Positions 13,304-29,776 of a stretch of DNA of 36,476 nt are shown piece after piece; the first letter of the stretch is position 1; every line of letters starts with the position of its first letter. Both the position numbers and the translations under genes were made by a program. This DNA is from a virus. The stretch spans positions 1 to 36,476 of IMG/VR virus record IMGVR_UViG_3300042564_000096. The stretch is one strand, 5' to 3'. A model generated the notes under the pieces. That model was given only the letters and a program-made list of their open reading frames with translations, was not told the DNA's origin and made no database searches.

Positions 13304-16183
13304 TTAGGCTTGTGCTTCTGACCAGAACAAGTTTACTGATACTGTTGCTGCATTGGTTGAAGAAAGATTTCTAACAACAACTGCTAAAACGTCTGGACCA
13401 TCAGGATAGTTAGAATAACCACCAATAGCAGAGTTTGTTAATTCTTTCAACTGCGATAAGTCAATCTCAGCGAAACCATTTGGCTGACCAAGAGTTGAGA
13501 AGTTTTGCTCACCTGGAGTTGCAGCAGTTGAAGTGCTGGTGGAAATCTGAGCAAAAGAAGGTTGTGAACCAAGAGCAGTAGTATTAACAGCAGTCCAAGT
13601 TAATGATGATGCATCAATATTACCTGGATTCAAAATACCATAAACTTGTACAGACTGGTCTGATTGAACTTGTAGTTTTTGTAGCAACAGTTGAGAACGA
13701 TTAATAAGATCTCGATCACCAAAGTTACCAGCAATTGAGTTTGATACTGATGGTGCTAGACGCAAGAAGAACTGCGTTTCAGAAGAACTTGCAGCAATAC
13801 TATTACCGATACCAGCATAGTTAAAATAGTAGCCACGATCAGAGTCAAAACCACCATCCATAATATAAGAAGAACCCCAGTGGTTAACAATTGGAGCGCA
13901 AGTACATGTAATTAAAGTTACTGCATTATAGCCATTACCAACTGCGTGGCTTGCCGCTGTACCACCAGAGAATGTTTTACTAGAACCACCAACGAACATG
14001 GTAAACGATGCACCACGAGTACATCCAGTTAATGTATTACCAGTCTTACCAGTATATGTAATATATTCACTATCAATAAGAATAGTACCACCAGTAGCTG
14101 GGAAACGAGAAGCATCATATAATACAACTGAAGTAACTGAACTATTCATAGCAGTTGCTAAACGATCTCGAGCAGATTCATTAATCGCTTGATAACGAAC
14201 CGCACTGTTACCAGTACGCATGTACGCTTCATCGTTCACGTTATTTTGTTTCATACGATGAACAGGAATCATATTACCATCTGGACCACGGAGCATGAAG
14301 TCGATAAAACCAGCACCATACCAAGAGAATGAAATTCCCAACATCTGCATTTTATTCAGATTAACTGCATATCCAGAAATGCCAGTACCATCAATCTTGT
14401 CAAAATTAAACTGAGACTGTGGAATACGTTGATCAATAACGTGGGCGATCTTAATGCCTGAAGAGTTATTAACGCCACGATATTCTGGATTGATGGTCAT
14501 GGTAGTATCATCGGTAATAGAACCAACACGATATGTCATACCACGAATAACAATACTATCGCCAACTTTTAACTGTTGAGTGAATCGAGTTGATGAACCA
14601 GTAATTGCTTGCGAACCAGCAGTAACAGAAACGAAACCAGATAATTGATAAGTTGCAGAACGCTTAACGACTGCTAATTCTTGTCCATCAAATTCCCAGA
14701 ATAATCCATTTTGATCATCAAAAGCACCAACACGAGTAGATGCGCCAATCCAATTTTTAACAGTAACACGTGGAAGGTTAGTAATAACAGCAGTAGTACT
14801 GCCAAGAGTACCTTGAGCAGAAACAGTAAATGTAGACTCATTCGTGATAGAAACTACACCATACGTGCCGTTGTATCCAGAAGTAACAACACCTGCAATT
14901 TCAACAGTGCATCCAGCTTGTAAACCATGATCAACCTCAGTTGATACAGTAATAACAGAACCAACAGTGGTGGCTGAAGCAGAAATTTGGTCAAGGTTTA
15001 GAACTGGATTGAATAAAACACCAGAAGTCCAAAGAATACCTTTACCTGATTGGTAACGCATATATTTCTTAGTTTGACGGGAAATAGAGGCACCATGAGA
15101 AGGTAGGAATGTTCCAAGGTTTACACCACCATCGAATGGTCTATGTTGAACGAAAGCATCAGAGCGAGTATAAGTTGTGGCAACAATACTAGAGTTTTGC
15201 ACTGCACCACCAACTCTAGCAGTAAATGTAAATGTCGTAGCAGATGGAACAGTTTCAACGAAAAAGTTACCACCCATTAAGGTGTGGTTTGTTCCAGAAG
15301 AAGTAACAATATTAACAATTGGAGCACCAGCAACCAAGCCATGATTTGCTGAACATGTTACTGTAATAATAGATGGCGATGCTGCATTAGAAGAATATCC
15401 AGTAATAGGTAATTCAGAACCAGCATAGAAACCACCACGACGTGCATACGTAGATTGATTAAAAACAGAAGTTCCATTGGTTCCTACAATACCTTTAGCA
15501 AAGTATGTAAACGTAGTTGAAGAAGGAACAGAAGAAATAACGAATGCGCCTTCAGAACGAGAAGCAGTTGCAACACCAGCACAACCGAAGATAATAACTG
15601 GAGTTGCAACAGAAAGTCCATGAGCCTGAGAACATGTAACAGTCATAACAGATGGATTACCACCATCTGATGTAATATCAGTAATAAACAAGTCAAGTCC
15701 TGGCTTCTCATAGATACCTGGAATACCACGGATATCTGAATAGTTCTGCCACTTAGTTGGCTGAAGACCATACTCAAAGTCAGCGTCAATTAATGACTGA
15801 GGATTAGCAACACGTTGACGTTCAATAGCGTCAACACCGAAACCATATGGGCGAACTACATTGCCAATATATTTTGGAGCATCAGAGTAAATAGCAAGTT
15901 TGTCAGATGATAACATTGATGCTGTATCAGATGCGAAAGTAACTGTAGTTACACCAACCTGCTCAGAGTATTGATTTGAACCACCCATGAAAGTAGTATC
16001 AGTGGCATCGTAAGAGATAGTACCATTCTTTGTTGGATCACCAATAGCGTAGATGTTTGTCTGCTGTGTTTTGTTCGCAATAATCAAAAGCTGAGTTAAG
16101 TCAACTTTACCAGGAAACTTAACAGTTCCTGATCCCGCTACATTTGGAGAGAAAATATATTTTTCAACTAACTGGCGTGCCAT
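13304..16183 (-). CDS. Large virion structural protein with HGL-type modules (959 aa)
   Basis: This is a non-repetitive structural protein of the kind found among tail/baseplate genes of T4-like environmental phages; its exact role is unknown. The N-terminus (QLVEKYIFSPNVAGSGTVKF) looks conserved. Three modules follow at about residues 176-231, 268-325 and 408-459 (MTVTCSQAHGL, ITVTCSANHGL, ITVSTEVDHGL, each ending near TTFTY/TFTV). Residues 515-570 form a GTxF-type module (SSTRFTQQLKVGDSIVIRGM). Residues 690-725 read FPATGGTILIDSEYITYTGK, a pattern seen in other phage tail proteins. The C-terminal third (CAPIVNHWGSSYIMDGGFD, 'DRGYYFNYAG') appears to be the conserved core domain. An AAGGATAT site lies before the ATG, and the gene starts 9 bases after the preceding stop. 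An anchor plate or fibre-hub role is inferred only from neighbours. Confidence 0.8.
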   Translation of the reverse strand: MARQLVEKYIFSPNVAGSGTVKFPGKVDLTQLLIIANKTQQTNIYAIGDPTKNGTISYDATDTTFMGGSNQYSEQVGVTTVTFASDTASMLSSDKLAIYSDAPKYIGNVVRPYGFGVDAIERQRVANPQSLIDADFEYGLQPTKWQNYSDIRGIPGIYEKPGLDLFITDITSDGGNPSVMTVTCSQAHGLSVATPVIIFGCAGVATASRSEGAFVISSVPSSTTFTYFAKGIVGTNGTSVFNQSTYARRGGFYAGSELPITGYSSNAASPSIITVTCSANHGLVAGAPIVNIVTSSGTNHTLMGGNFFVETVPSATTFTFTARVGGAVQNSSIVATTYTRSDAFVQHRPFDGGVNLGTFLPSHGASISRQTKKYMRYQSGKGILWTSGVLFNPVLNLDQISASATTVGSVITVSTEVDHGLQAGCTVEIAGVVTSGYNGTYGVVSITNESTFTVSAQGTLGSTTAVITNLPRVTVKNWIGASTRVGAFDDQNGLFWEFDGQELAVVKRSATYQLSGFVSVTAGSQAITGSSTRFTQQLKVGDSIVIRGMTYRVGSITDDTTMTINPEYRGVNNSSGIKIAHVIDQRIPQSQFNFDKIDGTGISGYAVNLNKMQMLGISFSWYGAGFIDFMLRGPDGNMIPVHRMKQNNVNDEAYMRTGNSAVRYQAINESARDRLATAMNSSVTSVVLYDASRFPATGGTILIDSEYITYTGKTGNTLTGCTRGASFTMFVGGSSKTFSGGTAASHAVGNGYNAVTLITCTCAPIVNHWGSSYIMDGGFDSDRGYYFNYAGIGNSIAASSSETQFFLRLAPSVSNSIAGNFGDRDLINRSQLLLQKLQVQSDQSVQVYGILNPGNIDASSLTWTAVNTTALGSQPSFAQISTSTSTAATPGEQNFSTLGQPNGFAEIDLSQLKELTNSAIGGYSNYPDGPDVLAVVVRNLSSTNAATVSVNLFWSEAQA

Positions 16184-16192
16184 TGTATATCC

Positions 16193-16840
16193 TTAGAATC
16201 CGAAAATAATTGAGTAACCAAGATAATCTGACTTGATTGACTGATCGATGTTGTTTAGAGAGATAATGCCTGTGAAACTTAATACACCCAAATCGTAAAT
16301 ACTATAGGCAATCTCAGTAATTGTACCTAAATCTTCTTCAATAGTTACATTACTATCGTATACATATCCAAGATCTGATTGAGATGTGGCAAAAACTGCA
16401 GAAGCAACAACTGCATTCGAGTCAGCGTTAATCCAAGCAGAACCAGTATATGTTAAAACCTGCTGGGCTGTTGGGCTACTAATTGCAACATCAGATAAAG
16501 TAGATAATGCAGGAGAAGGTGCAGCAGTCCATGTAAGACCAGTTGGTCCACGAGCAAGGAACTGGCCAGAAGAGCCAGTACTACCATTAATAGAAAGTAG
16601 AGTAGTGGCAGTTAATGCAACTGTACCAGATAAAGCTGGTGATTGAAGTGTTTTTTCTGTTAGGGTTTGTGCACCATCTAATGTGGCAACAGTGACGATG
16701 GCATCTGTACCACCTGGAGATTTTTTGAAGAATAGGTTACCATCATAAGTGTTTAATGCAAGTTCACCCAACGACAAATCTGTCGTTGCAGGATTTTTGC
16801 TCTGTACTGCAGAGCGTTTGATTAAAACTTTATTAGACAT
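16193..16840 (-). CDS. Short tail fibre-like protein (215 aa)
   Basis: It has an N-terminal anchor motif, VLIKRSAVQSKNPATTDLSL plus 'GELALNTYDGNLFFKK', of the same type as the larger fibre at 16920-19946 ([20 protein letters not shown]). A short shaft follows (LDGAQTLTEKTLQSPALSG), then a segment common in phage fibres (PTAQQVLTYTGSAWINAD). The C-terminal 60 residues (YDSNVTIEEDLGTITEIAYS onward) are acidic and unrelated to its neighbours, and may be the distal or oligomerisation end. The start ATG gives the family N-terminus. Upstream are tandem hairpins separating it from the longer fibre gene. I cannot tell whether it is a stand-alone fibre or a truncated paralogue of the larger one. Confidence 0.75.
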   Translation of the reverse strand: MSNKVLIKRSAVQSKNPATTDLSLGELALNTYDGNLFFKKSPGGTDAIVTVATLDGAQTLTEKTLQSPALSGTVALTATTLLSINGSTGSSGQFLARGPTGLTWTAAPSPALSTLSDVAISSPTAQQVLTYTGSAWINADSNAVVASAVFATSQSDLGYVYDSNVTIEEDLGTITEIAYSIYDLGVLSFTGIISLNNIDQSIKSDYLGYSIIFGF

Positions 16841-16867
16841 TATAACCTATTCTATCTAGAAAACGAA

Positions 16868-16903
16868 CCCAGTATATACTGGGATGGGGAATTTCACCCC
16901 ATC
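16868..16903 (-). terminator. Tandem hairpins after the 1008-aa fibre gene
   Basis: Read on the minus strand, a GATGGGG/CCCCATC stem with a 7-base loop is followed at once by the perfect 16-base palindrome CCCAGTATATACTGGG and then TTCGTTTTCT. The second stem plus T-rich tail resembles a Rho-independent terminator for the 1008-residue fibre gene. The two stems share one base, so their folding may compete at the junction. Confidence 0.6.
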
Positions 16904-16919
16904 AATTATTTAGTGTTAC

Positions 16920-19900
16920 TTAGTAAGTACCACCATCAATATTAAAACCATCAAGAGTTGAAGTTGCCGCACCCGCACCAGTAATATTAGTGCCAATAAA
17001 CATTGCCTTTGCTACAGACAATCCACCAGAAAGAACAACAGCAGCAGTTCCAACAGCTGACGCATCAGTAGTTGCAGTCATTGTTACGGCACCAGAAGCT
17101 GCAAGAGTCGTAAACGCACCAGTATTTGCAGTAGAAGCACCGATTGGAGTATTATTAATACTACCAGTAGTGATTATTGCGCCAGTAATTGTTTTATTAG
17201 TTAATGTATCAGTAGTGGCACGACCAACTAGAGTATCAGTAGAAGATGGAAGTGTTAATGTTCCACTGTTAACAATGGTGGCAATAACTGGAGCAGTTAG
17301 AGTCTTGTTAGTAAATGTTTCAGTACCATCTAAAGTGGCAAGAGTACCAGTAACAGGTAATGTTAATGTAGTATTAGCAGTTGTAGTTAGTGCAGTAGTA
17401 TGCGCACCAGAAGTAGTAAGATTGCCACCAAGTGTGATAGTCTTGCCAGTGTTTGCTACACCAGTGCCACCGTATGCGCCAGCAATTACTGAACCTTGCC
17501 AAGTACCAGTACCGATAGTACCAAGAGTAGTAATAGTTGATTGACCAACATAAGTTGATGCGATGTCAACAGCATCGGCAGAGATAGAGATACGATCAGC
17601 AGTACCAACTACATTTAAAGTATTACCAGTCTTAGTTAAACCATCACCAGCGATAACAGAACCAGCACCAGAGAACTGAACGAAGGTAATCGGTGTAGTA
17701 CCGATAGTAACAGCACCTACGTTAGTACATACATAACCATTGCTTGCGCCATTTGTACCTTCTTCAACGAAAGTAAACGCACCTGGAGTGATTTCACTAT
17801 TTTCATCAGCATCAACTGTACGAGTTAATACCCAGTTTGCAGAAGCCGAACCAACAGTGGTAACTCTATAGAAACCATTCTGTAGACCAGTAGTTTGATC
17901 TTTAACAAGAACACGATCACCAACAGTAAGAACTCTACTATCAATAGTAAGAGCAGCTTGAGTGCCAGAGTTAGTAAGAGTTGCACCAACACCAGAAGTT
18001 CCATTATTATAAGTTGCAGTTAGGTTACCAGTTGTAGTAACGATAACTGAGTCTTTAACATCAAGACCAGTTTTAACAGCATCAACATAGTTTTTAGTAG
18101 CAGCATCGCTAGACTGAGTAGGTTCAGCAACAGAAGTAATACGTTTATTAGAAACGTCAACAGTACCTGTACCAGTTGGAACTAAATCGATACTATTGTT
18201 ACCAGAAGCAGCATTAACAGTCATATTGCCAGAAGTGGCAGTAATGCTAGTGGCTAAAGCAGCACCAAGAGTTGGAGTTACTAGAGTTGGGCTACTAGCA
18301 AATACTAAAGCACCAGAACCAGTCTCATCAGAAATAACACCAGCAAGTTCAGCAGAAGTGGTTGCAGCAAATGCGCTTAGTTTATCTGCCACATAAGCAA
18401 CAGTACCGCCCGCACCGAATGCCACAGAAGAAGTATCTGTACCAGTGAAAGTTAATGTATTGCTTGCAGTAAGAGTTTTTCCATTGGCAATTGTTAGAGT
18501 GCCAGTACTTGAACTGATAGTTAAACCATTAATACTTGTAGCAGTAGCAACTCCAAGAGTTGGAGTAATTAGAGTTGGACTAGATTCTAGAACAACTGCA
18601 CCAGTACCAGTTACTGCAGTAATACCTGTTCCATTAATTTGGAACACATTACCTGTAGCTGCTGTATTGAATGTTTTATTGGTAAACGCATCAGTAGTTG
18701 CTTTACCAACTAGAGTATCTGTTGCAACTGGTAATGTTAATACGCTAGAACCAGCAGTAGCACCAGATAAAATTTGAGTAGTTCCAGAAGTAGAACCTGC
18801 GAATGTTGCAGAAGTTAATCCAGCAAGAGATGTAGAAGTTGCACCAAGAGCAACTGTTGTGCTACCAATAGTAACTGAACTGTTTGCTAAGTTTGCATTA
18901 GTGATACCAGCAGAGCCACTAAGATTGGTATTGGTTAAACCAGTAATAGTATTTGAACCAGCAGCAATTGTCTTGTTTGTTAGAGTATCAGTAGTTGCTT
19001 TACCAACTAATGTATCTGTTGCAGCTGGTAGAGTTAAAGTAGTAGAACCAGCTGCAGCAGAAGCAGCAACAGTTGTAGTACCTGTGGTACCAGAGAAAAT
19101 TGCACCACCAGATCCAATAGTTGGAGTAGTTAATGCTGGGCTGGTTAATGTTTTATTGGTAAGGGTTTGTGTACCATCAAGAGTAACAACAGTATTATCA
19201 ATACTAAAGTCAACTGTATTAGTTGCTGAAGTTACTGTTGAGGTAATACCTGTACCACCAGCAAATGTCAGAGTATCAGTTGCAAGAGCAATAGTATCTG
19301 TACCAGTATCACCAGCGATGCCTAAAGAAGTTGTAATACTTGCAGTACCAGCTGCAGTTAATTGACCCTGTGCATTAACAGTGAATGTTGGAATCGCAGT
19401 GGCAGATCCATAACTACCTGCAGTTACTGCAGTATTAGTAATAGAAACAGTACTTGAATTGCCAACATCAGAATTGGTAATAGTAATACCAGTACCAGCA
19501 GTAACTGCACCACCAACTTGATCAAAAATGTATTCAGCAAGAGTAGTTGATGTATCACCAATATAAACATTAGTGATAACTGTTTTACCTGTACCATTCG
19601 GAGTTAAAAGAATGTTACCATTGGTATCTGTAGAACTAATTGTATTACCATCAAAGTCAAGATTATCAACTTTAAGGTTATTAATTTTGCTGCTAGAATC
19701 AAGAACAATCGCAGATGACGCAGTTAGCGTACCTGGAGTATGATCCAACATATCGGTAAAATACTTACCACCAATAACAAAGTGGTTTGCTGCGTTTCCT
19801 GAAGTTTCTGATCCTATACCAATGTATAGTCTGTCACCACCATTTGATCCGTTGTCTGTTAATGCTGAGTACGCTAATTCACCTGCGCCCAGTGTGGCAG

Positions 19901-19946
19901 GATTGCCACTAACTGACGAACGCTTAATTCTGATAATAGATGCCAT
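16920..19946 (-). CDS. Long repetitive tail fibre protein (1008 aa)
   Basis: The N-terminus, [20 protein letters not shown] followed by '[19 protein letters not shown]', is the usual virion-binding start of fibres in this phage group. A long shaft of Ala/Thr/Gly/Ser-rich units follows, with recurring [18 protein letters not shown], '[18 protein letters not shown]' and [16 protein letters not shown]. At about residues 620-765 there is a globular segment ([18 protein letters not shown], '[17 protein letters not shown]', [20 protein letters not shown]). It is homologous to a segment of the 1154-residue fibre. The C-terminus ([20 protein letters not shown], ending FNIDGGTY) is a tail end common in such fibres. 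The ATG has a GGAGAC site. No lyase or hydrolase active site can be seen, so a binding or structural role is favoured. Confidence 0.85.
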
Positions 19947-19960
19947 CTTTTATGTCTCCG

Positions 19961-20212
19961 TTAAAATTCTCCACCTTCCATGTTTTGAGCATCGAGGGTG
20001 GTTGTGGACGTCCACTTATTTGTTGTTGTTCTATAGACTAGCACTGAACCATTGAGTTTGCCATAAGTTGATGTATCTACATCGGCTACGTTATCTAACG
20101 ACTCTACCACAGCAGGTGGAGCTAAATCCGAGAATGCTGTAGTTAAATTCTGTTCTAATGTGGTAATGACTAAGTCTTCATCACCACTTAATGTTACGAA
20201 TGTGTCTGCCAT
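19961..20212 (-). CDS. Small conserved virion-associated protein (83 aa)
   Basis: This 83-residue protein starts MADTFVTLSGDEDLVITTLE. The second half, LDNVADVDTSTYGKLNGSVL followed by VYRTTTNKWTST and ending NMEGGEF, resembles the 'L-V-Y--TTNKW' segment that phage fibre proteins use near their N-termini. No membrane segment or cysteine is present. It starts 2 bases after the preceding gene and ends 14 bases before the 1008-residue fibre, so it is co-expressed with both. It may be an adapter between fibre and tail; I have no direct evidence for this. Confidence 0.7.
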   Translation of the reverse strand: MADTFVTLSGDEDLVITTLEQNLTTAFSDLAPPAVVESLDNVADVDTSTYGKLNGSVLVYRTTTNKWTSTTTLDAQNMEGGEF

Positions 20213-20214
20213 AA

Positions 20215-20547
20215 TTATTGAGTAATTTGAGGTGTTACCGTTACAATTCCCTCAACCACTCGCTTCTTTGCACCACCACTAGAAGTTACCTCTAAGTCAT
20301 AGAGATATCTTCCTGGAGGAATTGCTTCAGATTGAGTAGCTGTTAATTGAATTCGTACCCTTCCTTGTGCTGCAGCATAGATTGATGCAGTAAACGCATA
20401 TGCAGTGGAAGACGTATACGACTTTCTCATTTGAGATGCAACAGTATAGCCAGTTAGGTCGAGTGCCTGACCATTAGATGCGGTGACAGTGATTATATTG
20501 CTATAATCACTACCTTGATCTACAAAAATATTCGCTACAGTTGCCAT
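20215..20547 (-). CDS. Small beta-sandwich-like virion protein (110 aa)
   Basis: The protein has a pattern familiar from phage tail modules: an N-terminal VANIFVDQGSDYSNIITVTA, then 'LDLTGYTVASQMRKSY', a central strand-rich part GRVRIQLTATQSEAIPPGRY, then LYDLEVTSSGG and the end VVEGIVTVTPQIT. This resembles the short N-terminal sandwich domains of baseplate upper proteins and related virion proteins; the identity is inferred from pattern only. It is the first gene after a strong terminator and a perfect late promoter, with a CGGAG ribosome site, so it opens the second fibre operon. Confidence 0.75.
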   Translation of the reverse strand: MATVANIFVDQGSDYSNIITVTASNGQALDLTGYTVASQMRKSYTSSTAYAFTASIYAAAQGRVRIQLTATQSEAIPPGRYLYDLEVTSSGGAKKRVVEGIVTVTPQITQ

Positions 20548-20571
20548 TCATAACTCCGTGTTTTACTTCTT

Positions 20572-20579
20572 TATTTATA
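20572..20579 (-). promoter_or_regulatory. Late promoter TATAAATA opening the second fibre operon
   Basis: There is an exact T4-type late element on the minus strand, 24 bases before the ATG at 20547. It sits between a UUCG-loop terminator and a gene with a good ribosome site. This layout of terminator, promoter, ribosome site and gene is the clearest transcription boundary in the window. Confidence 0.75.
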
Positions 20580-20598
20580 ATTCTAGAGAATGCAAAAC

Positions 20599-20625
20599 AA
20601 AAAACCCCACCGAAGTGGGGTTTTT
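20599..20625 (-). terminator. Rho-independent terminator with UUCG tetraloop
   Basis: The minus-strand RNA would fold CCCCAC-UUCG-GUGGGG followed by UUUUUUGUUUUG. The loop reads C(UUCG)G only on this strand, which supports the direction. It begins within a few bases of the chaperone-like gene's stop. An A-tract before the stem makes it potentially bidirectional, but there is no opposing gene. Confidence 0.92.
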
Positions 20626-20629
20626 AACT

Positions 20630-21124
20630 CTATTCTAATACCCATCGGGCAGTATCTGTTCCAGTCTCTATATCTAATGTATAATTGCCTGTGGATGGCT
20701 TTTCTGGAATAATAACCCATGACGTATCAGACTCTCTCCATTCATATTTACCAAACGTAGGATTTGGATATTCTGGATGTCTAACTGGTGGAATAAATCT
20801 ACATGCATCTTTATTCCAAACCCATGATGCAGGTGGTGGGTTGAATTCTAAAACATTTAATCTAAATTCTTCTTTTTTATCATCAACTTCTTCTGCTGTC
20901 ATGTCTCGAATTTTATGAACTTCTTTAAAGATATCCCCATGTCTTTCAAACACAGTCTCAATAAAAACTTCATATGTTCCAACAGATAATTCACTTCTTT
21001 CTACCAGAACATATTCATTGTTATTATTCAAATCTATATCTGGAAATGCTACAAGTAAATTTTCTGTTAAAATTGGGAGACCTTCAGCCTCTCCACTTGA
21101 ATTTGTTTTAATATAGTAACTCAT
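20630..21124 (-). CDS. Probable tail assembly chaperone (164 aa)
   Basis: The C-terminal half has the Trp-repeat pattern of phage tail assembly chaperone-like proteins (Phage_tail_APC type): FNPPPASWVWNKDACRFIPP, then YEWRESDTSWVII. The N-terminal half, YYIKTNSSGEAEGLPILTEN plus 'AFPDIDLNNNNEYVLVER', is mixed alpha/beta. No signal or membrane segment is present. The ATG overlaps the stop of the glycine-rich adhesin gene (ATGA), so the two are translationally coupled, which fits a chaperone or partner for that adhesin. It is the last gene before a strong terminator. It could instead be a minor virion protein, because such W-repeat domains are not always chaperones. Confidence 0.7.
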   Translation of the reverse strand: MSYYIKTNSSGEAEGLPILTENLLVAFPDIDLNNNNEYVLVERSELSVGTYEVFIETVFERHGDIFKEVHKIRDMTAEEVDDKKEEFRLNVLEFNPPPASWVWNKDACRFIPPVRHPEYPNPTFGKYEWRESDTSWVIIPEKPSTGNYTLDIETGTDTARWVLE

Positions 21125-21783
21125 GGTGCTGCACTCAAATCATTTACTTGTGTTGATGGGAATGATCGAACAGTTCCAGGGTAAATAACTCGTACGCCTC
21201 CAGGACCTCCACTTTGACCACCACCATAATAAGGATGCCCACCCCTGCCGCCATTACCATAGCCACTACCACCTGGACCGCTGAGACCAACACTAGCTCC
21301 AGGTGAGTTTGAAGCAGTAACTCCATTTGTATTATAACCGCCTGCACCACCACCACCGCCATATTCACCAGCGCTTTGGCCAGGTGCACCATTACCTCCA
21401 CCAGTATATGTTCCTTCTGGACCTGCGCCACTAGTACCCGCAGCAGCACGTCCAGTAGTAGTTCCAGAAGGTGCAGCAAAAGATGAGTATCCACCACCGC
21501 CACCACCATAACTGCCGCCACCATCTACTGTTACAGTATATGAGCTGCCTGCTGTCACCGCAATATTATTTCTAAATGCTAATGCTCCACCGCCACCGCC
21601 ACGACCATCACCCCATCCGCCACCATTGCCAGCCCCAACACATACTACTGATACAGAACTAACCCCTTCTGGGGCTACAAAAGTTCCAGCACTACTATAC
21701 ACTGTTTGTCCGTAAATAAGACCTGCACCAAGAGCCTTAAATCCAAATATAGATCCAGCCCCTCTAGTTGATAATAAAGGCAT
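21121..21783 (-). CDS. Glycine-rich tail adhesin (gp38-like architecture)
   Basis: This 220-residue protein has a short N-terminal region (LLSTRGAGSIFGFKALGAG), then a strand pair typical of glycine-rich phage proteins (AGTFVAPEGVSSVSVVCVGA). From about residue 50 to 200 come many poly-Gly runs (GGWGDGRGGGGG, YGGGGGGYSS, EYGGGGGAGG, GGGQSGGPGG). The end, GGVRVIYPGTVRSFPSTQV, is a closing motif I associate with this protein type in environmental phages. Such runs form packed polyglycine II helices in the known T-even gp38 adhesins, with variable loops between them binding the receptor. No sequence homology to gp38 is claimed. The AAGGAGA site and ATG are clear. It lies after a fibre gene and overlaps a chaperone-like gene, the expected setting for a fibre-tip adhesin. 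Confidence 0.75.
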   Translation of the reverse strand: MPLLSTRGAGSIFGFKALGAGLIYGQTVYSSAGTFVAPEGVSSVSVVCVGAGNGGGWGDGRGGGGGALAFRNNIAVTAGSSYTVTVDGGGSYGGGGGGYSSFAAPSGTTTGRAAAGTSGAGPEGTYTGGGNGAPGQSAGEYGGGGGAGGYNTNGVTASNSPGASVGLSGPGGSGYGNGGRGGHPYYGGGQSGGPGGVRVIYPGTVRSFPSTQVNDLSAAP

Positions 21784-21794
21784 TCACGTTCTCC

Positions 21795-23015
21795 TTAAGA
21801 ATACTTAGTTTGAGTCCCTAAAACTACAAATGTAGCACTAGCAGTTTTAGTTATTGTTAATGAATATACATCAATAGAATTTATATTTCCAGTTGATGGG
21901 GCAGAAGTACCAGACCATTTAACAGTTACTGCGCTACCATCAATTTGAAACCCAGTTTGGTAATATGCAGTGCTCCCATTAGTGACCATAAAAGCTAATG
22001 ACATAGATTCACCAACAGCCATAATGCTATCTAGTGTAGCACCAGCACTTCCACGAACATTTAATGTCCAATTGGCGGAAGCATTTGATGTATAATAAAG
22101 AACTGCCTGTGTCAATAAATCATAGTTAATTGTACCAGTCGCAGCAGTAGCAGAAACTGTAGTTTTCTCAATAGTTTGTTGGATTGATAAAGTAGAAGCA
22201 ATAGTCTGTTTTGCAGAAAATGTTTGTGCTACGTTTGTAACAGCATTATTAGCATCATATGCCTGCACATTGGTACCTATTGCTAAACCGAGAGCAGTTC
22301 TTGCATCACCAGCAGTAGCACCACCAGTACCACCAGAAGCAATTGGTAAAGTACCCGTAGTTAAAGCAGAAGTAGATGTAGCATAAACAGCACCACCAGA
22401 AGTGAATGATGTTAAACCAGTACCACCCTTAGTAGTACCGATAGTGGTTGCATTCCAAGTACCAGTACCGATAGTACCAAGTGTAGTAATATTAGTGCTA
22501 CCTGTAAACGTAGAAATTGCAGTATTTTCTACGTTATTTAAAGACAAATCAGTCTTAACTGTAGAAGCAGAAACCCATGAAGGAGCAGTTCCAGTAGACT
22601 TAAAGTAAGTTCCAGAAGTACCAATAGCAAGTAGGGTTGTAGTATCAACTGAAGTATTGTATGGAATAGAACCAGCAAGACCGCCAACTATGTTAGTTGC
22701 CTTTGACGCAGTTCCTGTTACATTACCAGTTAAGGCAGCAGTGATAGTTCCAGCACTAAAGTTACCAGAACTATCTCTTGCAACAATAGTACTAACTGTA
22801 TTTGCTGTGGCAGAATTTAATCCATCTAATGTGTCTGCATCTATACCAGACCCAGTTCCATCAACAGTTAACAGCTTCGATAATACATCAGCAGCAGTAT
22901 AGCTAGTAGCAGTTAACTTAGTACCAACCTCAGTATTAAGGGCAGTAAAGTTAGCATCTACTTCAGCATTTGTAAGGGGACTACCCTTAGTTGTTCTTAG
23001 CGTTAATGTCGCCAT
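21795..23015 (-). CDS. Tail fibre protein with shared C-terminal tip domain (406 aa)
   Basis: The N-terminus, TLTLRTTKGSPLTNAEVDAN, is a widespread virion-attachment motif in fibres of T4-like environmental phages. Residues 50-280 are shaft-like repeats ([73 protein letters not shown]). Residues 283-406 form a compact domain, INYDLLTQAVLYYTSNASAN through AYYQTGFQIDG to VLGTQTKYS, that is paralogous to the C-terminus of the 257-residue fibre. An AAGGAAA site precedes the ATG. It lies directly before the glycine-rich adhesin, so it may supply the shaft that the adhesin caps; that pairing is an inference. Confidence 0.82.
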   Translation of the reverse strand: MATLTLRTTKGSPLTNAEVDANFTALNTEVGTKLTATSYTAADVLSKLLTVDGTGSGIDADTLDGLNSATANTVSTIVARDSSGNFSAGTITAALTGNVTGTASKATNIVGGLAGSIPYNTSVDTTTLLAIGTSGTYFKSTGTAPSWVSASTVKTDLSLNNVENTAISTFTGSTNITTLGTIGTGTWNATTIGTTKGGTGLTSFTSGGAVYATSTSALTTGTLPIASGGTGGATAGDARTALGLAIGTNVQAYDANNAVTNVAQTFSAKQTIASTLSIQQTIEKTTVSATAATGTINYDLLTQAVLYYTSNASANWTLNVRGSAGATLDSIMAVGESMSLAFMVTNGSTAYYQTGFQIDGSAVTVKWSGTSAPSTGNINSIDVYSLTITKTASATFVVLGTQTKYS

Positions 23016-23030
23016 TGTGTTTTCCTTACT

Positions 23031-23261
23031 TTAAGAACTTTTGTTTATTAGCAGCAGAAGCATCTGTTTTATCTCAGAAAGTTCTGTCTTCATGTTATTT
23101 ATTTCTTCCGAATGTTCTTCGAATTGTCTCTGTTTATTCAACGCTGCATCTCTGCGGTTTATATAATTCTGATACTCAGATCTATTAGTATTTATAATGG
23201 CGCTAGTGCTTATATCTCGCACCAGCCCATCTTTACCCTCAATTTTAACTATTCTAGTCAT
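23031..23261 (-). CDS. Small coiled-coil protein next to the DUF4815 gene (76 aa)
   Basis: The start is taken as the ATG at 23261, which overlaps the previous stop as TAATG. The longer reading frame would need a TTG nine bases earlier. The protein opens TRIVKIEGKDGLVRDISTSA, a short strand-forming segment with a conserved 'LVRD' look, then turns into a charged helix (RDAALNKQRQFEEHSEEINN) and ends with a Leu-heptad coil (MKTELSEIKQMLLLLIN). Similar short proteins, a beta start plus C-terminal coiled coil, accompany the giant structural protein in related phages. It is likely a trimeric or dimeric clip, or a chaperone, for that protein; the function is not shown by sequence. Confidence 0.75.
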   Translation of the reverse strand: MTRIVKIEGKDGLVRDISTSAIINTNRSEYQNYINRRDAALNKQRQFEEHSEEINNMKTELSEIKQMLLLLINKSS

Positions 23262-26200
23262 TATGCACAAGCGATAACACGAAGATCTTTAACTCTTGGA
23301 ACTGCCGCAGAGTTTGTGGACTTCATAACTAACTTAATTTGAAGCGAGTCAAAGGCACTGATATCTGTAGCAGTAAATGTCGTATCAATAAATTGATCAC
23401 TACCAACTTGAACATATACGATTTGACTATCTGGAGAAATTAGCGTCCAGTTAATAGTATCAAAGGAGGTAGTAGAACCAAGTGCTCCAGTTTTATAATA
23501 GACATCTACAGAAGCATCTGCAGGAATACTTGCTCCAAACTGTACACGGATTAGGTGTGATGTATTAGCCAAGTTAATTTTCTTAGTTACATACTTACTA
23601 TACGTAGAACTTCCAATAGGAGCAATTTCATCTACGAAAAAGTCTTTCTGAGAAAGAGTAATTGCAGGTGTAGCTGCCTGAGTAGTAAATGCTCTATTTA
23701 ATGTAACAGTGGCAGTAGTACCATTATCAGCAACTTTAGTCACTAAGAAAGTACCATCATTTAACGCACCAGTAGAACCAGAAACAGTCAGGTATTTACC
23801 AACAGCGATAGTTTGTAAAATTCCACGAGCAGTAGAGTTTGTAGAAGTAATAGTGCTTCCACTGAAAGCAATAGTAGTATTAGCAGTCAATAAAGCCTTA
23901 TCATCAATACCACCAATATTCATATTATCAGAAGTTGGAGCATTAATCTTATTGCTAATTCCAATCAGACTAATACGATGTGTGTCTAAGATCGGAGACA
24001 GCGAATCATTAGTGGTGCTCATAGTTACGTTGAATGCCGCAGATTTATTTCCACTTAAACTATTGTCTTCATTAACTTCAGAAGCTACCATTCTTGGAGT
24101 TGGGAAATAATTATTTTCATTTGCTAGAACATCACTAAATCCTGAGTCAAGAGTATAAGCAGACTGTGTAGAACTATCAACTGATTTGCCAGTTGTAGTC
24201 TTAATACCAAATGTAGTCATAGTTTCAGAGAAAGTCTGAATCTGTAGGGTTGGTTGTACACCATCATACTGCAAGTTTCTGGTAGCACGAACAGTAGTAC
24301 CACCAGTATATCCACTAGATGTTGGTGTTGTAGAAACAGTTATACAGTAAGAATCTAAATCAACATCACTAATAATCTGAGTTGTATAAATCTCAGCAGC
24401 GGGAACACCAAAGATAGGAGCAACATATTTGAACGCAGAACCAGAACTCAATGTAGCAGTAGCATTAGCCGTAAATGTGGCAGAAGTGTTACTTACAATA
24501 GTAGCAATCTTTCCGATATAAGAACCAGAAGAATTATAAATTGCAGTTCCAACAGCAAGTTGTGTAGTGAATGCAGTTCCAACACCAGTCAATGTGGTAT
24601 TAGCAGTGCTTGTTGCAATAGTTCCAGTACCTGTAGTTCCAGTTAACTGAGTTTGATCAGAACTTGTAATAATAGTACGTGATCCCGAAGGCATGCCATG
24701 GTTAGTTTGATATACACGAACCTTAGTCACACCACTCTTAATTTCAAACGGATCAGTTGCTAGATTTTGATATGGTAGAACATCATTGACGAACTCTACG
24801 TTAGCGATTACATCAGTCTCAAATTTAGCACGATAGATCGTAAACTTTAAATCTTGGTTTTGATCAGCTGTCCAAGTAGATGCATTCTGAGATTTAAAGA
24901 ATACACCCATGTAAGGTTGTTCAGAAATAGTACGATTAGATCCTGGAATCAAATCACCAATCTGAGAAATCCAAACTTGATAATTGTTTGAATCTGATGA
25001 AAGAATAATAGCATACTCTCCATTATCCTGTACATAAACAGGAGATGGAAATTCAAACGTAGTAGGAGTATCATACTTTGGAGTTGGTACACCACCAACT
25101 GAAACTACGTTGCTGGAGATATTTACATCAGCTGATTTTACAGATACTTTGGAGAATGGTAAAACTAATTTACCTGGATATCCGTTAACAACTTCACGAA
25201 TCTCTAAATTAACAGGAATGTTTTCATCTTTAGAAGCAAAGAAAATATCGATCTTAGTTAAGAATGCGCCACCTTTTTGTTGCACTAAGAATGTTTGTGC
25301 AAGTGGATCCCACCATCCTGTATCAGAAACAACACGATCAGCAGATTCTACAATGACTTGGTTTTCTACTAATTGTTCTTCAGCAAGTTGAGCATTACGC
25401 ACAGCATTAACAGTTGATTGACGTGTTTCCAGAATACCTTCAGCACGATATAAAGCACGACCACGAGAAGTAAAATCACCCTGCGCTGCTACGTTATCAA
25501 CTAATTTAAACTCACGAGTACCTGTACGGAAACGAACAGATTCACTATTTGGGATATTAAAGATTAAGTTTAAATCTCCAGTGAAGTTTGATACTAAGTT
25601 ATCTCCAGCCACAGTAGTGGTCAATGAAGAGAATGTACCACGTGCAGCAGATATAGAACCCTCTAGTTGCTCAGAAGCAGAGAATGTACCCTTAACATTC
25701 TGCACGAACATAGAGTAGATTCCAGTAGCTGCATTATATTCTTGACCAACAACAATAGCAGTTGCACCAGAAGTAGCACCAGTAATAACATCACCACGAT
25801 TCAAACAAACTTGCGAATCACCATTAATACGTCTAGCAGTTTCAGAAGAAAGACCACCTACGTTAGATGAATCATCAAATTGTCCACTAACTGGCAAATA
25901 TGTTAACTTAGACGCAGGAGTGCAGAATTGAGAAACTGTAACATCATCGAAATAAGGATAGAAACGAGTGTTGGGTTTTAATCCTTTAACTTGGACAAGA
26001 ATATTTCTTGAACGAATATATGGAATAACTGCAGTAGAAAGAATACGATCAGAAATAATCTCACGATCAATACGTGAGACTAAAGTTGTCTTAACACCAG
26101 TACGAGTCTGTCCGATTTGGGTTGCAACAGTTTCTGCAACAACTTGACGTGCATTAACGTGACCAGCATCTCTTCTACCAAAACGTGCATTAAACGCATC

Positions 26201-29200
26201 AACATCTAAGAAAACATCACCTTGACGTGCTGCCCAATTTATACCAGTAGTAAAAATTGTTCTTGATGATACGGCAGCACCAGTCCACTGATTTTGCCAT
26301 GCGTTCCATACAGTTCCTAGAACACCTGCACGTTCAGCAATAGCTTTCACTGCATTGAAGTTACCTTCAACTTGATTGACGATATCTGGACGACGTTCAA
26401 CTTCAAACCAATCATCAGAAGATGGCGTTAGAGTTACTTGTCCCAAGAATGTAAAGATGGCAAACGGATTAATGTTTTCTAAACGAGATGCGTATTCTTG
26501 ATTAACAAGTGGTACATGCTCAACAATAGGCAATGTAATAACATCACCATATATCTTGTAGTTTGCATCAATACGATCTGCGTCACTAGAATTCTTTTCG
26601 ATCAGATTAATGTTTTGCATTGAATAGAATGGACGAAGTTCACCCTTCTCCATATCAATAGAACACAAATAGTCAGGAGAAGTTACATCTCCAATATTTT
26701 GTGCAGCAAAACTATCTACGATAAATCCATTTTTAAATCTATCAAGACCAGCAGTGTCGACAATGTTCAATGATTCAGTTTGCTGCTCCAATAGAGATAA
26801 TGATGTATAGTATTCAAGATTGTCAATGCGTTTTTCTAACTTACCAATATCACGCATAGTATAGCGTTTATTGTCTACTGAACCAACCACGACAGAAGTT
26901 GATGTAGTTGAGAACGTATATGGCTCTAAAGTTAAATTATAGAGAACCATACCCAGAGATGGATCAAGTGGCTCTCCTGGAGTTAAAGAAGATACGCCAT
27001 CGATAGGGAAGAAGTTACCATTGAAATCAACAGCAATTTTAGTTTTGCGTGCCAAGTAATATGTGAAATCTGCACGAATATCAATACCACGTTTTGGAAC
27101 TAAGGCACCAGAAGAACCTGAACCACTAAATGTAGCACCAGCATCATCAATACGTGGACGGAAGTCAATAGTATCACGTAATGAAGTTCCATTAAATACT
27201 GGAATAGTTTCGTATGCTACGTTTCCTGGATATGAATTAACTGTGAAGTAGTCACCAGTAGAGTGGGTAAAGTATTCAAACTCAACGCTAATTGGGGCAG
27301 TTGGTGCAACATAAGATGCTTTTAACAATAGACGTGCTACATCATAGTGAGTGTGGCGCTGCCCATCATCAAATTCATATCGATCTGTAATATCAATAGT
27401 ATATGAACCAGCTGCAGAAGCAAATGTTCCAGCATCCATTTTAACTGAAATTAAACGGAATGCATCAGCCTTACCAAGTAATAACTCTGTCTTGGTTGCA
27501 GTGGCAGCAGTAGTGAATGTAGTAGTCGTAGAAGCTAATGTTTTAGTTTTCTCTGTTAGAGTTGCTCCAGATTTATTTACTGTACCAATAACGATAAAGT
27601 TTTGGGATGCAAACGTATCAGACAATGTAAATTGAACTGTTGCGTCAGAAACCAAAATTGCAGAAGGAAGAACTACTGCACCACCACTACCAGAATCATT
27701 ACACATTAACAAATAGTTATCAGTTTCTGCAGCAGAAGCAAATGTTCCACTAGAAGTAGTAACAGTTAATGTGCAATTGCCACCAGATGCGGAAGAAGTC
27801 GTTCCAGTGAAACGCTCCATAACTGTATAAGTTGTATCATTAGTGCCACCAGAAGAACGAACTGATTTAATAGCGTAATATGGAAGTTTATAAATTAAAC
27901 TTGTATTTTCTGGTTCTTTTAATTCTGCAGTAATTTCATCAACTGTGACGCCAATTACGTTCACAGCAGAAGCAACTTCAATTCTAGTTTGAGAAACGAT
28001 AGATGTTACACGAACACGATTAGTTCCTAGGTAAACCCAATCTCCAACTGTAAGATCAGTTTGGAATGATGTACCTAAACCTTGGATAAATGTACCTGAA
28101 CCTTGTGTACCGTAGGTATTAGAAGTGTATGAAGTAACTGAACCAATTAAACGTGTATTATCTCCAACGATATCTGCTGTGAAACTTAAATTAGCATCAC
28201 TTGATACGTTAAAGTAGAAAGACTTGGCATTTTCGTGGAAAGTATATCCAGCAGTAATATTAACATCAAACAAGAATACTTTATATTGCTCAGTACCTGA
28301 TGCAATTGTTCCATTGTGCCACTCAATACCACGAATACGTGCCGTGCCGATTGCATTTGCGCTTGTTGGAACTGCACCATCAGAAGTTACATATCTATCG
28401 TAAATGGTTACTGCAGCGAATGAATTAACTGGAGGTAAGTTATTGATGTTATCAACAATAACATAATTACCAACAGTGGCAGGAATAATGGCATTATCAA
28501 CCTGAACAAATTCACGTGCTTTATTGACTGCAATATATTCAGTTGCAACTTTTTCAATTTCGTAACCTTGTACATATGCCTTTCCTGGCTCTAATCCAAT
28601 AGCTAGTTTAGAAGAATCTCCACCATTAGCTGGTGTGAACACGCCACGATTGTAGTATGGAGTAATATTATATTCCCACTGAACACCAGTAGATCCTGGA
28701 CCATCATACGCTAAACCGCTAGTATGTGTAGGTGTAGTATTAATAGAAGTAGATGAGTTTTTAGCAACATATGTAGTTCCATTACTAGTAACTATGTCAC
28801 CAATCAAATATGCTGTATTTGATACCCAAGCACCACGATTGTTGTTTCTATGCTCACGAACATCGATTTTAAATGGACGTACAGCATAATTTCCTGACTC
28901 ATCATACGTGCGACGAGCAAGAGTTTTTTCTAAAACATTATATTCAGTTGTAGTTGTATGGCGAATAATCGCACCAGCATCTACACGAAGAAGTTCAATA
29001 AAGTCTACATCTGCTGTAGAATCAATCGATTTCTTATCTAGAACTAAATCAATGTAGTAACGATGAGCACCTGGAGCAGCATAGTTATAGCTATTTTGCG
29101 CATTATCTAAAAGTGATTCATATCCAGTATCTTCTGGAGTAATTAACTGTTCATCGACAGTCAATCCAATACGATATGTTGGTACATTTGTATATTTGTC

Positions 29201-29776
29201 CAGAATAATAGTTTGTGTATCACATAAAACAAAATATCCATTAACATAATATACACCACGTTCAATGGTAGCAGTTGAACCAATTCCAGTAGAAGCTGTT
29301 GCTATTGCTTGAACTTTATATGATGTTAATAGTGCGTCATCTGGGGTGATAGTTTCACTATCAGCAAACACTTGAGTTGTATTATCATTTGCAGAATTTT
29401 TGTAGCGAACATACAAAGTTGCTGGTTCAGCACCTGATGCAGAAATAACTTTAAGAACTTTAGCTTGTAAGCCATTAGCGCCAGTAACATCTTGCCCCTC
29501 TAAGCGAGTCAAATATGTTTCAATGGCATTACCAGCAAACAATGGCTGAAGTTTAATATATGATACATTGCAATCGATAGACAGTTGCCCTGGAATAATC
29601 ATGGCACCCTGTTTAAACAAGTGATCGCCACCACGTTTAATTTGGTTTTGTAGAATTGATTGGAGTTGTGTTAACTCACGTGCTTGAACAGCAAAACTTG
29701 GACGGAATAAAATTCTATGAAATTTATTCTCTTCGTCAAAGTCATCATTATATGGTTCTGTGTTGAAATCTAGCAT
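23261..29776 (-). CDS. Giant DUF4815 tail/baseplate structural protein (2171 aa)
   Basis: This is the largest gene of the window. Residues 1-450 are a DUF4815-type region (MLDFNTEPYNDDFDEENKFH, 'SFAVQARELTQLQSILQNQI', RGVYYVNGYFVLCDTQTI). Residues about 314-371 within it are a Trp/Tyr module (AWVSNTAYLIGDIVTSNGTT) like those in gp8 and gp7. A GTxF module lies at 553-612 (GLGTSFQTDLTVGDWVYLG). Residues 970-1300 are the conserved core (LENINPFAIFTFLGQVTLTP, 'VIPYIRSRNILVQVKGLKPN'). An SGATA module sits at 1328-1390 and the DTGWWDPLAQTFLV segment at 1485-1498. A second GTxF module lies at 1717-1786. The C-terminus (FDSLQIKLVMKSTNSAAVPR) closes with a typical DUF4815-protein end. It sits where T4 has genes 9-10, so it may form the outer baseplate or its pins. 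No T4 gp10 motif is seen. A candidate late promoter is close upstream. Confidence 0.85.
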   Translation of the reverse strand: MLDFNTEPYNDDFDEENKFHRILFRPSFAVQARELTQLQSILQNQIKRGGDHLFKQGAMIIPGQLSIDCNVSYIKLQPLFAGNAIETYLTRLEGQDVTGANGLQAKVLKVISASGAEPATLYVRYKNSANDNTTQVFADSETITPDDALLTSYKVQAIATASTGIGSTATIERGVYYVNGYFVLCDTQTIILDKYTNVPTYRIGLTVDEQLITPEDTGYESLLDNAQNSYNYAAPGAHRYYIDLVLDKKSIDSTADVDFIELLRVDAGAIIRHTTTTEYNVLEKTLARRTYDESGNYAVRPFKIDVREHRNNNRGAWVSNTAYLIGDIVTSNGTTYVAKNSSTSINTTPTHTSGLAYDGPGSTGVQWEYNITPYYNRGVFTPANGGDSSKLAIGLEPGKAYVQGYEIEKVATEYIAVNKAREFVQVDNAIIPATVGNYVIVDNINNLPPVNSFAAVTIYDRYVTSDGAVPTSANAIGTARIRGIEWHNGTIASGTEQYKVFLFDVNITAGYTFHENAKSFYFNVSSDANLSFTADIVGDNTRLIGSVTSYTSNTYGTQGSGTFIQGLGTSFQTDLTVGDWVYLGTNRVRVTSIVSQTRIEVASAVNVIGVTVDEITAELKEPENTSLIYKLPYYAIKSVRSSGGTNDTTYTVMERFTGTTSSASGGNCTLTVTTSSGTFASAAETDNYLLMCNDSGSGGAVVLPSAILVSDATVQFTLSDTFASQNFIVIGTVNKSGATLTEKTKTLASTTTTFTTAATATKTELLLGKADAFRLISVKMDAGTFASAAGSYTIDITDRYEFDDGQRHTHYDVARLLLKASYVAPTAPISVEFEYFTHSTGDYFTVNSYPGNVAYETIPVFNGTSLRDTIDFRPRIDDAGATFSGSGSSGALVPKRGIDIRADFTYYLARKTKIAVDFNGNFFPIDGVSSLTPGEPLDPSLGMVLYNLTLEPYTFSTTSTSVVVGSVDNKRYTMRDIGKLEKRIDNLEYYTSLSLLEQQTESLNIVDTAGLDRFKNGFIVDSFAAQNIGDVTSPDYLCSIDMEKGELRPFYSMQNINLIEKNSSDADRIDANYKIYGDVITLPIVEHVPLVNQEYASRLENINPFAIFTFLGQVTLTPSSDDWFEVERRPDIVNQVEGNFNAVKAIAERAGVLGTVWNAWQNQWTGAAVSSRTIFTTGINWAARQGDVFLDVDAFNARFGRRDAGHVNARQVVAETVATQIGQTRTGVKTTLVSRIDREIISDRILSTAVIPYIRSRNILVQVKGLKPNTRFYPYFDDVTVSQFCTPASKLTYLPVSGQFDDSSNVGGLSSETARRINGDSQVCLNRGDVITGATSGATAIVVGQEYNAATGIYSMFVQNVKGTFSASEQLEGSISAARGTFSSLTTTVAGDNLVSNFTGDLNLIFNIPNSESVRFRTGTREFKLVDNVAAQGDFTSRGRALYRAEGILETRQSTVNAVRNAQLAEEQLVENQVIVESADRVVSDTGWWDPLAQTFLVQQKGGAFLTKIDIFFASKDENIPVNLEIREVVNGYPGKLVLPFSKVSVKSADVNISSNVVSVGGVPTPKYDTPTTFEFPSPVYVQDNGEYAIILSSDSNNYQVWISQIGDLIPGSNRTISEQPYMGVFFKSQNASTWTADQNQDLKFTIYRAKFETDVIANVEFVNDVLPYQNLATDPFEIKSGVTKVRVYQTNHGMPSGSRTIITSSDQTQLTGTTGTGTIATSTANTTLTGVGTAFTTQLAVGTAIYNSSGSYIGKIATIVSNTSATFTANATATLSSGSAFKYVAPIFGVPAAEIYTTQIISDVDLDSYCITVSTTPTSSGYTGGTTVRATRNLQYDGVQPTLQIQTFSETMTTFGIKTTTGKSVDSSTQSAYTLDSGFSDVLANENNYFPTPRMVASEVNEDNSLSGNKSAAFNVTMSTTNDSLSPILDTHRISLIGISNKINAPTSDNMNIGGIDDKALLTANTTIAFSGSTITSTNSTARGILQTIAVGKYLTVSGSTGALNDGTFLVTKVADNGTTATVTLNRAFTTQAATPAITLSQKDFFVDEIAPIGSSTYSKYVTKKINLANTSHLIRVQFGASIPADASVDVYYKTGALGSTTSFDTINWTLISPDSQIVYVQVGSDQFIDTTFTATDISAFDSLQIKLVMKSTNSAAVPRVKDLRVIACA

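Follow-up and report, generated by a model that had tools for sequence, protein, structure and literature searches.

The closest described system is that of cyanophage Pam3. Its fibre protein gp24 is made up of a TNF-like and a glycine-rich domain, in which the stem is conserved and the far tip variable (PMC9608196). The partner protein gp25 helps gp24 to fold in a 3:3 complex, binds the fibre tip through its N-domain and contains a helical trimerising domain; in the accessible part of the same report, gp25 was undetected in the virion (PMC9608196). In Alteromonas phage V22 the receptor-binding protein gp26 is active only together with the downstream gp27, and according to the accessible part of that work, the fibre peak did not contain gp27 (PMC7289586). 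Tfa of phage Mu, according to the accessible parts of both sources, remains in the virion (PMC9608196, PMC7289586).

In environmental phages, receptor-binding tips are difficult to annotate, and so are the proteins that help them to fold. A gene pair of this sort was analysed here in the uncultured phage record IMGVR_UViG_3300042564_000096; the window, i.e. the whole stretch of DNA analysed, covers this record completely (36,476 bases). Its minus strand carries T4-like phage genes for portal, tail tube, sheath, terminase, neck and tail fibres. The pair probably constitutes a receptor-binding cassette, in which a tip adhesin with a TNF-like and glycine-rich (TG) core and a coupled assembly chaperone of the release type are exchanged as a unit.

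The exchangeable slot and its surroundings

The features of the locus are as follows:

20215-20547, minus strand: conserved gene across the slot, with one PHROG match 'L-shaped tail fiber protein assembly' and 81-95% identity in four relatives
20572-20579, minus strand: TATAAATA, T4-late-promoter-like, directly past the terminator, in 5/5 phages
20600-20625, minus strand: intrinsic terminator (11-pair stem, 4-base loop, T-run) closing the cassette
20634-22713, no strand assigned: replacement slot, with flanks 74-92% identical and the inside swapped
20630-21124, minus strand: gene of the chaperone-type small protein, 164 aa
21121-21124, minus strand: ATGA, four bases in which the adhesin stop and the small-protein start overlap
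21121-21783, minus strand: glycine-rich adhesin gene with a Pam3 gp24-like TG domain (modelled), 220 aa, phrog_4474 match at E 1.6e-16
21795-23015, minus strand: preceding fibre gene, N-terminal part common to four relatives (L002, L003, L008, L009), rest swapped
23189-23196, minus strand: TATAAATA, possible late promoter for the unit of fibre gene, adhesin and chaperone, in 4/5 phages, not in L002

A first-pass annotation of the window had described a glycine-rich gene overlapping by ATGA with the gene of a small tryptophan-containing protein, both in a terminator-closed cassette. Both open reading frames were recovered exactly where it had placed them, and the strong terminator is indeed present after the pair, just outside the limits it had given. 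This terminator, read from 20625 to 20600, has the longest stem among 14 sites found in 16000-24000 (shuffled sequences give 4.4 ± 1.9 sites), and a hairpin with a T-run is found at the same position in all four relatives. The motif TATAAATA, which we take to be the core of the T4 late promoter, occurs three times in the window, not above chance (mean 3.97), so the promoter argument rests on its conserved position.

The large neighbour at 23261-29776 has 45% identity with a Synechococcus phage BUCT-ZZ01 protein and has relatives in Pelagibacter and Methylophilales phages; used as bait, it gave 72 loci. The region is present in the four relatives, where the genes on both sides are common and the genes between them differ. 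In all four, DNA homology extends across the large neighbour and the beginning of the preceding fibre gene, stops between 22714 and 22907 (L008 has one extra 52-base homologous piece at 22714-22764) and resumes at 20607-20633, which is the terminator. Inside the slot, no blastn match of at least 40 bases (E 1e-5) to L002, L003 or L009 was detected, and L008 gave only one 72% stretch, at 21844-22179. As an exception to the swapped remainder of the preceding fibre gene, its last 144 residues are kept in L008 at 60%. The adhesin and small-protein pair fills this exchangeable slot as a unit.

Some further observations were made in this region. Behind the glycine-rich gene of L002 (19697-19984) no member of the small-protein family was found, and a short open reading frame of about 60 codons was seen by eye; in L009, two genes separate the glycine-rich gene from the small-protein relative. 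The large baseplate-type protein at 23261-29776 has a match to the carbohydrate-binding module CBM_5_12 at residues 316-352 (E 1.9e-5, just under the cut-off). Two different fibre genes of the window, at 21795-23015 and 9021-9794, share a terminal domain family, phrog_5906.

The adhesin and the small protein

The two proteins were divided into the following parts, all encoded on the minus strand:

21721-21783: adhesin N-terminal segment, residues 1-21 (MPLLSTRGAGSI...), a possible docking piece, with low model confidence
21181-21720: modelled TG domain, residues 22-201, TNF-like strands and glycine-rich arms
21124-21180: adhesin C-terminal tail, residues 202-220 (PGTVRSFPST...), seen again in relatives
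20900-21124: small-protein N-terminal domain, residues 1-75, homologous to the N-domains of Phage_tail_APC proteins
20636-20824: small-protein C-terminal tryptophan module, residues 101-163, predicted to form six short strands, common to phrog_7759

The adhesin contains 69 glycines in 220 residues (31%), with 13 runs of at least two. The profile of phrog_4474, a phage glycine-rich family whose function is not assigned, matched it at E 1.6e-16 and matched 25/25 members of the adhesin set A4 at E <= 0.001. The cut-off of the Pfam family Gly_rich_2 (PF21722) was not reached by the adhesin (17.6 bits vs 24.3); 15/25 A4 members matched this family at E <= 0.1, the best at 8.4e-12. An AlphaFold2 model was built from 25 aligned sequences (mean pLDDT 68.9, pTM 0.71), with the core strands confident and the glycine arms poor (block means down to 37). 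No helix of at least four residues was visible in the model, but residues 1-20 have a mean pLDDT of only 40-49. The best PDB match was the Pam3 fibre 7ypx_A (Foldseek E 4.3e-4; Z 11.8 over 153 residues at 3.9 A, 33% identity), followed by 7yfw_a, also of Pam3 (Z 10.8), the Bxb1 tail-tip protein (Z 9.8) and the TG domains of ALK/LTK (Z 8.1-9.1); the next unrelated fold falls to Z 3.8. These clear structural matches of the model point to a TNF-like and glycine-rich core, closest to that of Pam3 gp24.

The 'gp38-like architecture' proposed in the first-pass annotation was not supported. No match of the adhesin to the GP38 Pfam family was found up to E = 1, and the folds retrieved were those of Pam3 gp24, the Bxb1 tail tip and the ALK/LTK TG domains. 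The S16 gp38 fold (6F45) is absent among the listed fold matches, a listing that by itself does not exclude such a likeness. The gp38 reading was dropped because of the missing GP38 match and the Pam3-type fold. The accompanying analogy with a T-even pair is loose, since gp38 is a chaperone in T4 and an adhesin in S16, as described in the accessible parts of PMC7289586 and PMC9608196.

For analysis of the variable positions, 109 TG domains including that of the window were aligned from 158 sequences, the others being short, identical or without the start motif. Many of these sequences were chosen because their C-terminal tail fits a DNA pattern, and tail conservation in this set is therefore partly a selection effect, and glycine-rich stretches align poorly. 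From the start of the domain to the end of the protein the window adhesin has 201 residues, against a median of 264 among relatives (range 128-441). All 108 other TG domains carry extra residues after positions 160, 175, 184 and 188, the insert after 160 having a mean of 27 residues, which indicates that the window adhesin is a shortened version. Two loops between glycine runs, beginning at residues 102 and 149, had been put forward as receptor-contact segments. In the first (102-117), one residue is found in at least half of the sequences at 8/16 columns (F102 in 88%, the glycines at 113-114 in 81-83%), columns 103, 107, 108, 110 and 115-117 are variable, with an insertion at 105; the stretch 100-114 aligns with a hairpin and then glycines, about half of its columns being conserved. 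In the second (149-167), 14/19 columns are conserved by the same measure, and within 149-169 mostly conserved columns are seen, with variation at 153, 156, 158-160 and a few others. At several conserved columns the window differs from the family glycine, which makes the alignment uncertain there. The loops are not uniformly conserved, so the receptor-contact idea stands to this extent; both are mixtures and not clean variable loops, and the variable places are short breaks between glycine runs.

The first 12 residues of the adhesin are identical in the sister phage L008. At L008:17575-19206 this common start is followed by repeated Ig-like sequence ahead of the TG domain. Within A4, one member matches Pfam Ig_2 (E 4e-9) and 12/25 match fn3.

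The small protein has tryptophans at residues 101, 103, 129, 136 and 161. An AAGGAG motif is located directly ahead of the adhesin ATG and nothing comparable precedes the small-protein start, which fits translational coupling of the pair. In the small-protein family (A3, 30 sequences) the N-domain is conserved, and most members also have a module with paired tryptophans at the C-terminus. The structure model of the small protein was confident (pLDDT 92.4). No PDB fold match to it was obtained at E 0.001 (best E 0.6; two rows with Z 2.3-2.4), a result that does not prove a new fold. Against BFVD, models named 'Phage tail assembly chaperone' were matched at E 1e-5, 5e-4 and 8e-4, the two best matches being unnamed. 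The window protein had no Pfam match to Phage_tail_APC or Caudo_TAP (PF02413, Tfa) up to E = 1, and the 30 A3 members gave nothing in Pfam better than E 0.0046, with PF16778 absent among the nine families at E <= 0.1.

The N-domain was linked to known families through genes located behind other adhesins. It is fused to Phage_tail_APC in L240 (E 3.9e-24) and L232 (E 2.1e-21); in L225, which is cut by the contig end, the Phage_tail_APC match lies below the cut-off. A profile of four such proteins (A5: the APC domain is complete in two, truncated in one and absent from one) aligned with the A3 N-domain profile over 88 columns (hhalign probability 97.9, E 3.6e-13, from one pairwise comparison). 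Proteins of the L240 type bear the annotation 'tail fiber assembly' or 'tail assembly chaperone' in Lentibacter phage ICBM2. In L139 the same N-domain is followed by a C-terminus resembling the tail fiber assembly families phrog_188/105/136 (E 4e-4 to 3e-3), with only a below-cut-off match to Caudo_TAP (E 0.019); other members with such a Tfa-like C-terminus match more weakly. Some family members behind adhesins have no C-domain at all, and of 53 distinct members listed in that position, the profile match extends into the tryptophan module in 33 but stops short of it in 20, with E-values taken from small local sets. Phage_tail_APC proteins unmatched by the N-domain profile occupy the same place behind other adhesins in L170 and L179, with a 4-base overlap. 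The label 'chaperone type' given in the first-pass annotation gained support from the N-domain common with Phage_tail_APC proteins, by the chaperone-named BFVD matches and by the APC proteins of L170 and L179.

The C-terminal module leads to a different family, phrog_7759, which is annotated as of unknown function. The phrog_7759 profile was matched by the window protein at E 0.0067 and by 20/30 A3 members at E <= 0.1 (best 1.7e-7), and the profile-profile match reached E 2.5e-13 over 52 columns, at the C-terminus only. The N-terminal domain of phrog_7759 was not matched, the alignments covering the C-terminal part only. The module is found on at least two different N-terminal domains, that of the window family and that of phrog_7759 (at least 595 stretches). 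Judged from these sequence relationships, the small protein is a modular chaperone candidate, with an APC-type N-domain and a phrog_7759-type tryptophan module.

Recurrence of the gene pair

BLAST with either window protein retrieved no relative, whether among viral contigs or among 50,697 records of phages, a search whose low-complexity filter disfavours the glycine-rich adhesin as query. Because no direct match was available, neighbours and distant relatives were used as search handles, and a gene was scored as glycine-rich when at least 22% of its last 180 residues were glycine. In the scan seeded with the small protein (39 rows, 31 loci after removal of 8 duplicates), a glycine-rich gene was located directly upstream in 28/31 distinct loci; two of these loci, L076 and L104, lie on contigs from which seed sequences had been taken, and without both the count is 27/29. 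The three exceptions were L076 (the L009 contig, with the glycine-rich gene further upstream), L081 and L111, where the gene ahead of the small protein encodes a Phage_tail_APC protein. In the scan seeded with the adhesin tail, at least 120 stretches were obtained by the tail pattern, and 133 rows minus 23 duplicates and one short row left 109 distinct adhesins listed. The next gene belonged to the N-domain family in 54 (4 of which sit on contigs that helped to build the profile), was another adhesin in 25 and something else in 30, and an overlap of 1 or 4 bases was found in 36/54 pairs listed. With phrog_7759-type proteins as seeds (80 rows, minus 2 duplicates and 5 short ones), a glycine-rich gene was directly upstream in 67/73, drawn from the best 80 of at least 595 relatives.

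As control, one method was applied with duplicates kept. The small protein was preceded by a glycine-rich gene in 31/35 cases, against 27/259 for the other gene pairs in those loci; for the phrog_7759 type the values were 69/74 (from the best 80 of at least 595 relatives) against 49/373, and in gp10-seeded loci 3/600 gene pairs qualified. Among cultured phages, the gene ahead of the phrog_7759-type protein was glycine-rich in 5/6 measured cases (Melnitz-1 twice, CRP-143, HTVC025P and CRP-207); in the sixth, DSL-LC04, the glycine-rich gene lies further upstream. In Pelagibacter phage Greip the tryptophan-module protein is preceded by a gene annotated 'DNA stabilization protein', which shows that the pairing is not universal.

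No co-variation was found between N-domain distances and those of the adhesin stem, middle and tail (r 0.01, 0.04 and 0.06) in 45 usable pairs of 69, the other 24 being unusable and most tails being pattern-picked, with little variation. A tight one-to-one fit is not favoured by this result.

Several other features of these loci were recorded. Adhesins in tandem were seen (L139, L150, L130, L184, L221 and others, accounting for the 25/109 listed adhesins that precede another adhesin), and several tandem loci, e.g. L139 and L150, end with one small protein. The only match in the bacterial genome scan was L243, a contig of the MAG Acidithiobacillales SM1_46, where an adhesin overlaps a short N-domain small protein; the pair is also found, then, on a contig binned to a bacterium. 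In Melnitz-1 (L074), the genes annotated 'tail assembly chaperone' (8061-8249, 9095-9403 and 20898-21281) are not the tryptophan proteins, and those behind the glycine-rich genes are annotated hypothetical.

By eye, the next same-strand gene behind the pair appears to encode a member of one 2OG-Fe(II) oxygenase family in 23/74 distinct chaperone-family genes (L088, L100-L103, L106, L107, L109-L111, L113, L133, L172, L173, L178, L180, L186, L197, L208, L212, L215, L216 and L232), and PF13759 was above the cut-off in 23/23 of these oxygenase-type records. Perhaps the adhesin is hydroxylated post-translationally in such loci; the window has no 2OG-Fe(II) oxygenase gene of that kind. The next gene looks cupin-like by motif pattern in L104 (that is, the sister phage L008), L131, L152, L166, L181, L198, L231 and L243, and three more cupin-pattern matches look like oxygenases.

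Possible role of the pair and likeness to known systems

To the observed gene order, overlap, domain homologies, recurrence and slot boundaries, the mechanism proposed here adds, conditionally, chaperone activity, specificity, receptor binding and release. The gene at 21121-21783 would encode a TG-type fibre tip with a modelled TNF-like beta core, the strands of which extend into glycine arms, and the short variable ends at the far tip may touch the host, as suggested by Pam3 gp24. The product of the gene at 20630-21124, made by coupled translation, would act as assembly chaperone of the adhesin. Its N-terminal beta domain may bind the nascent tip in the manner of the Pam3 gp25 N-domain, and the tryptophan module would stand where Tfa/APC chaperones have a helical trimerising domain, and would perhaps keep the glycine arms in register. 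The chaperone would most likely be released ahead of virion maturation, and the unit would be exchanged between the conserved N-terminus of the upstream fibre and the conserved terminator plus late promoter. The missing co-variation, together with the tandem adhesins that have one small protein downstream, speaks against a tight lock-and-key fit and points to recognition of a common glycine fold.

It is possible, and we propose it only tentatively, that the tryptophan module is a dedicated polyglycine-handling domain, whose tryptophan hairpins keep the glycine strands of TG adhesins in register. If so, the widespread phrog_7759 family would gain a specific job and phage chaperones keyed to the glycine-rich fold of the client, not to its sequence, would be defined, which would fit the missing co-variation.

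Alternatively, the small protein could be a resident part of the fibre tip like Mu Tfa, which stays in the virion (PMC9608196, PMC7289586), with the tryptophan hairpins touching host sugars. Tryptophan-rich beta hairpins would suit sugar binding, and the module is kept on two different N-domains. However, as reported in the accessible parts of these papers, Pam3 gp25 was undetected in virions (PMC9608196) and V22 gp27 was absent from the fibre peak (PMC7289586), and Phage_tail_APC proteins without a tryptophan module can occupy the same place behind the adhesin. We regard residence in the tip as unlikely. In a T2/S16-type arrangement, the adhesin would cap a separate fibre trimer in the manner of gp38, and the fibre at 21795-23015, not the adhesin, would be the client of the small protein. 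In favour of it, the stretch ahead of the TG domain has only about 20 residues, which is not enough for a helical shaft like that of Pam3, and the adhesin may therefore sit on another fibre. This arrangement appears quite improbable, since the small-protein family is located behind glycine-rich genes in many loci that were collected regardless of the upstream fibre and the adhesin has no GP38 Pfam match. That the two genes are mere neighbours in a recombination-prone variable region, with no functional partnership, would agree with the lack of co-variation, the intervening genes of L009 and the unpaired protein of Greip, but is very hard to reconcile with the immediate adjacency in 28/31 and 67/73 loci (the latter from the best 80 of at least 595 relatives), the much lower control frequencies and the short overlaps in 36/54 pairs listed.

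With a receptor-binding cassette and its release-type chaperone as the preferred reading, a pair that has no direct match in two collections could be recognised through fold, gene position and shared domains, and the boundaries of an exchange slot were marked in T4-like phages. A role is proposed both for phrog_7759 and for the N-domain family, whose 30 members gave at best E 0.0046 against Pfam; the best lead is the proposal that phrog_7759 is an adhesin-assembly family. Among the titles and abstract openings listed from the open-licence literature, no published link was found between a phrog_7759-like protein or the tryptophan module and glycine-rich fibres.

Compared with known systems, the window adhesin is like S16/T2 gp38 in being a glycine-rich tip protein, a resemblance taken from the accessible parts of the papers, and unlike it in having a modelled TNF-like core in place of the gp38 beta-helix (PMC9608196) and no GP38 sequence match. 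The small protein shares with phrog_7759 the C-terminal tryptophan module and the place behind glycine-rich genes, whereas the N-terminal domain is different (the alignment covers the C-terminus only). With Phage_tail_APC (PF16778) it shares a homologous N-domain and the same gene position in L170, L179, L232 and L240, but the APC C-domain is absent from it. Relatives of V22 gp27 are said to carry DUF4376 (PMC7289586), and DUF4376 proteins are among the weak structural matches of the small-protein model (E 0.012); in contrast, V22 gp26 resembles T4 gp34 and pyocin fibres, and the terms 'glycine-rich' and 'tryptophan' are absent from the accessible part of the source (PMC7289586). Pam3 gp24/gp25 (PDB 7ypx), the best fold match of the adhesin, likewise consists of a TG fibre and its own small chaperone. 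It differs in the long N-terminal helical shaft of gp24, of which the adhesin model, of low confidence in that part, gives no sign, and in the helical trimerising domain of gp25, where tryptophan hairpins are predicted in the window small protein. By analogy, the pair would belong to a kind already known from Pam3 gp24/gp25 and V22 gp26/gp27.
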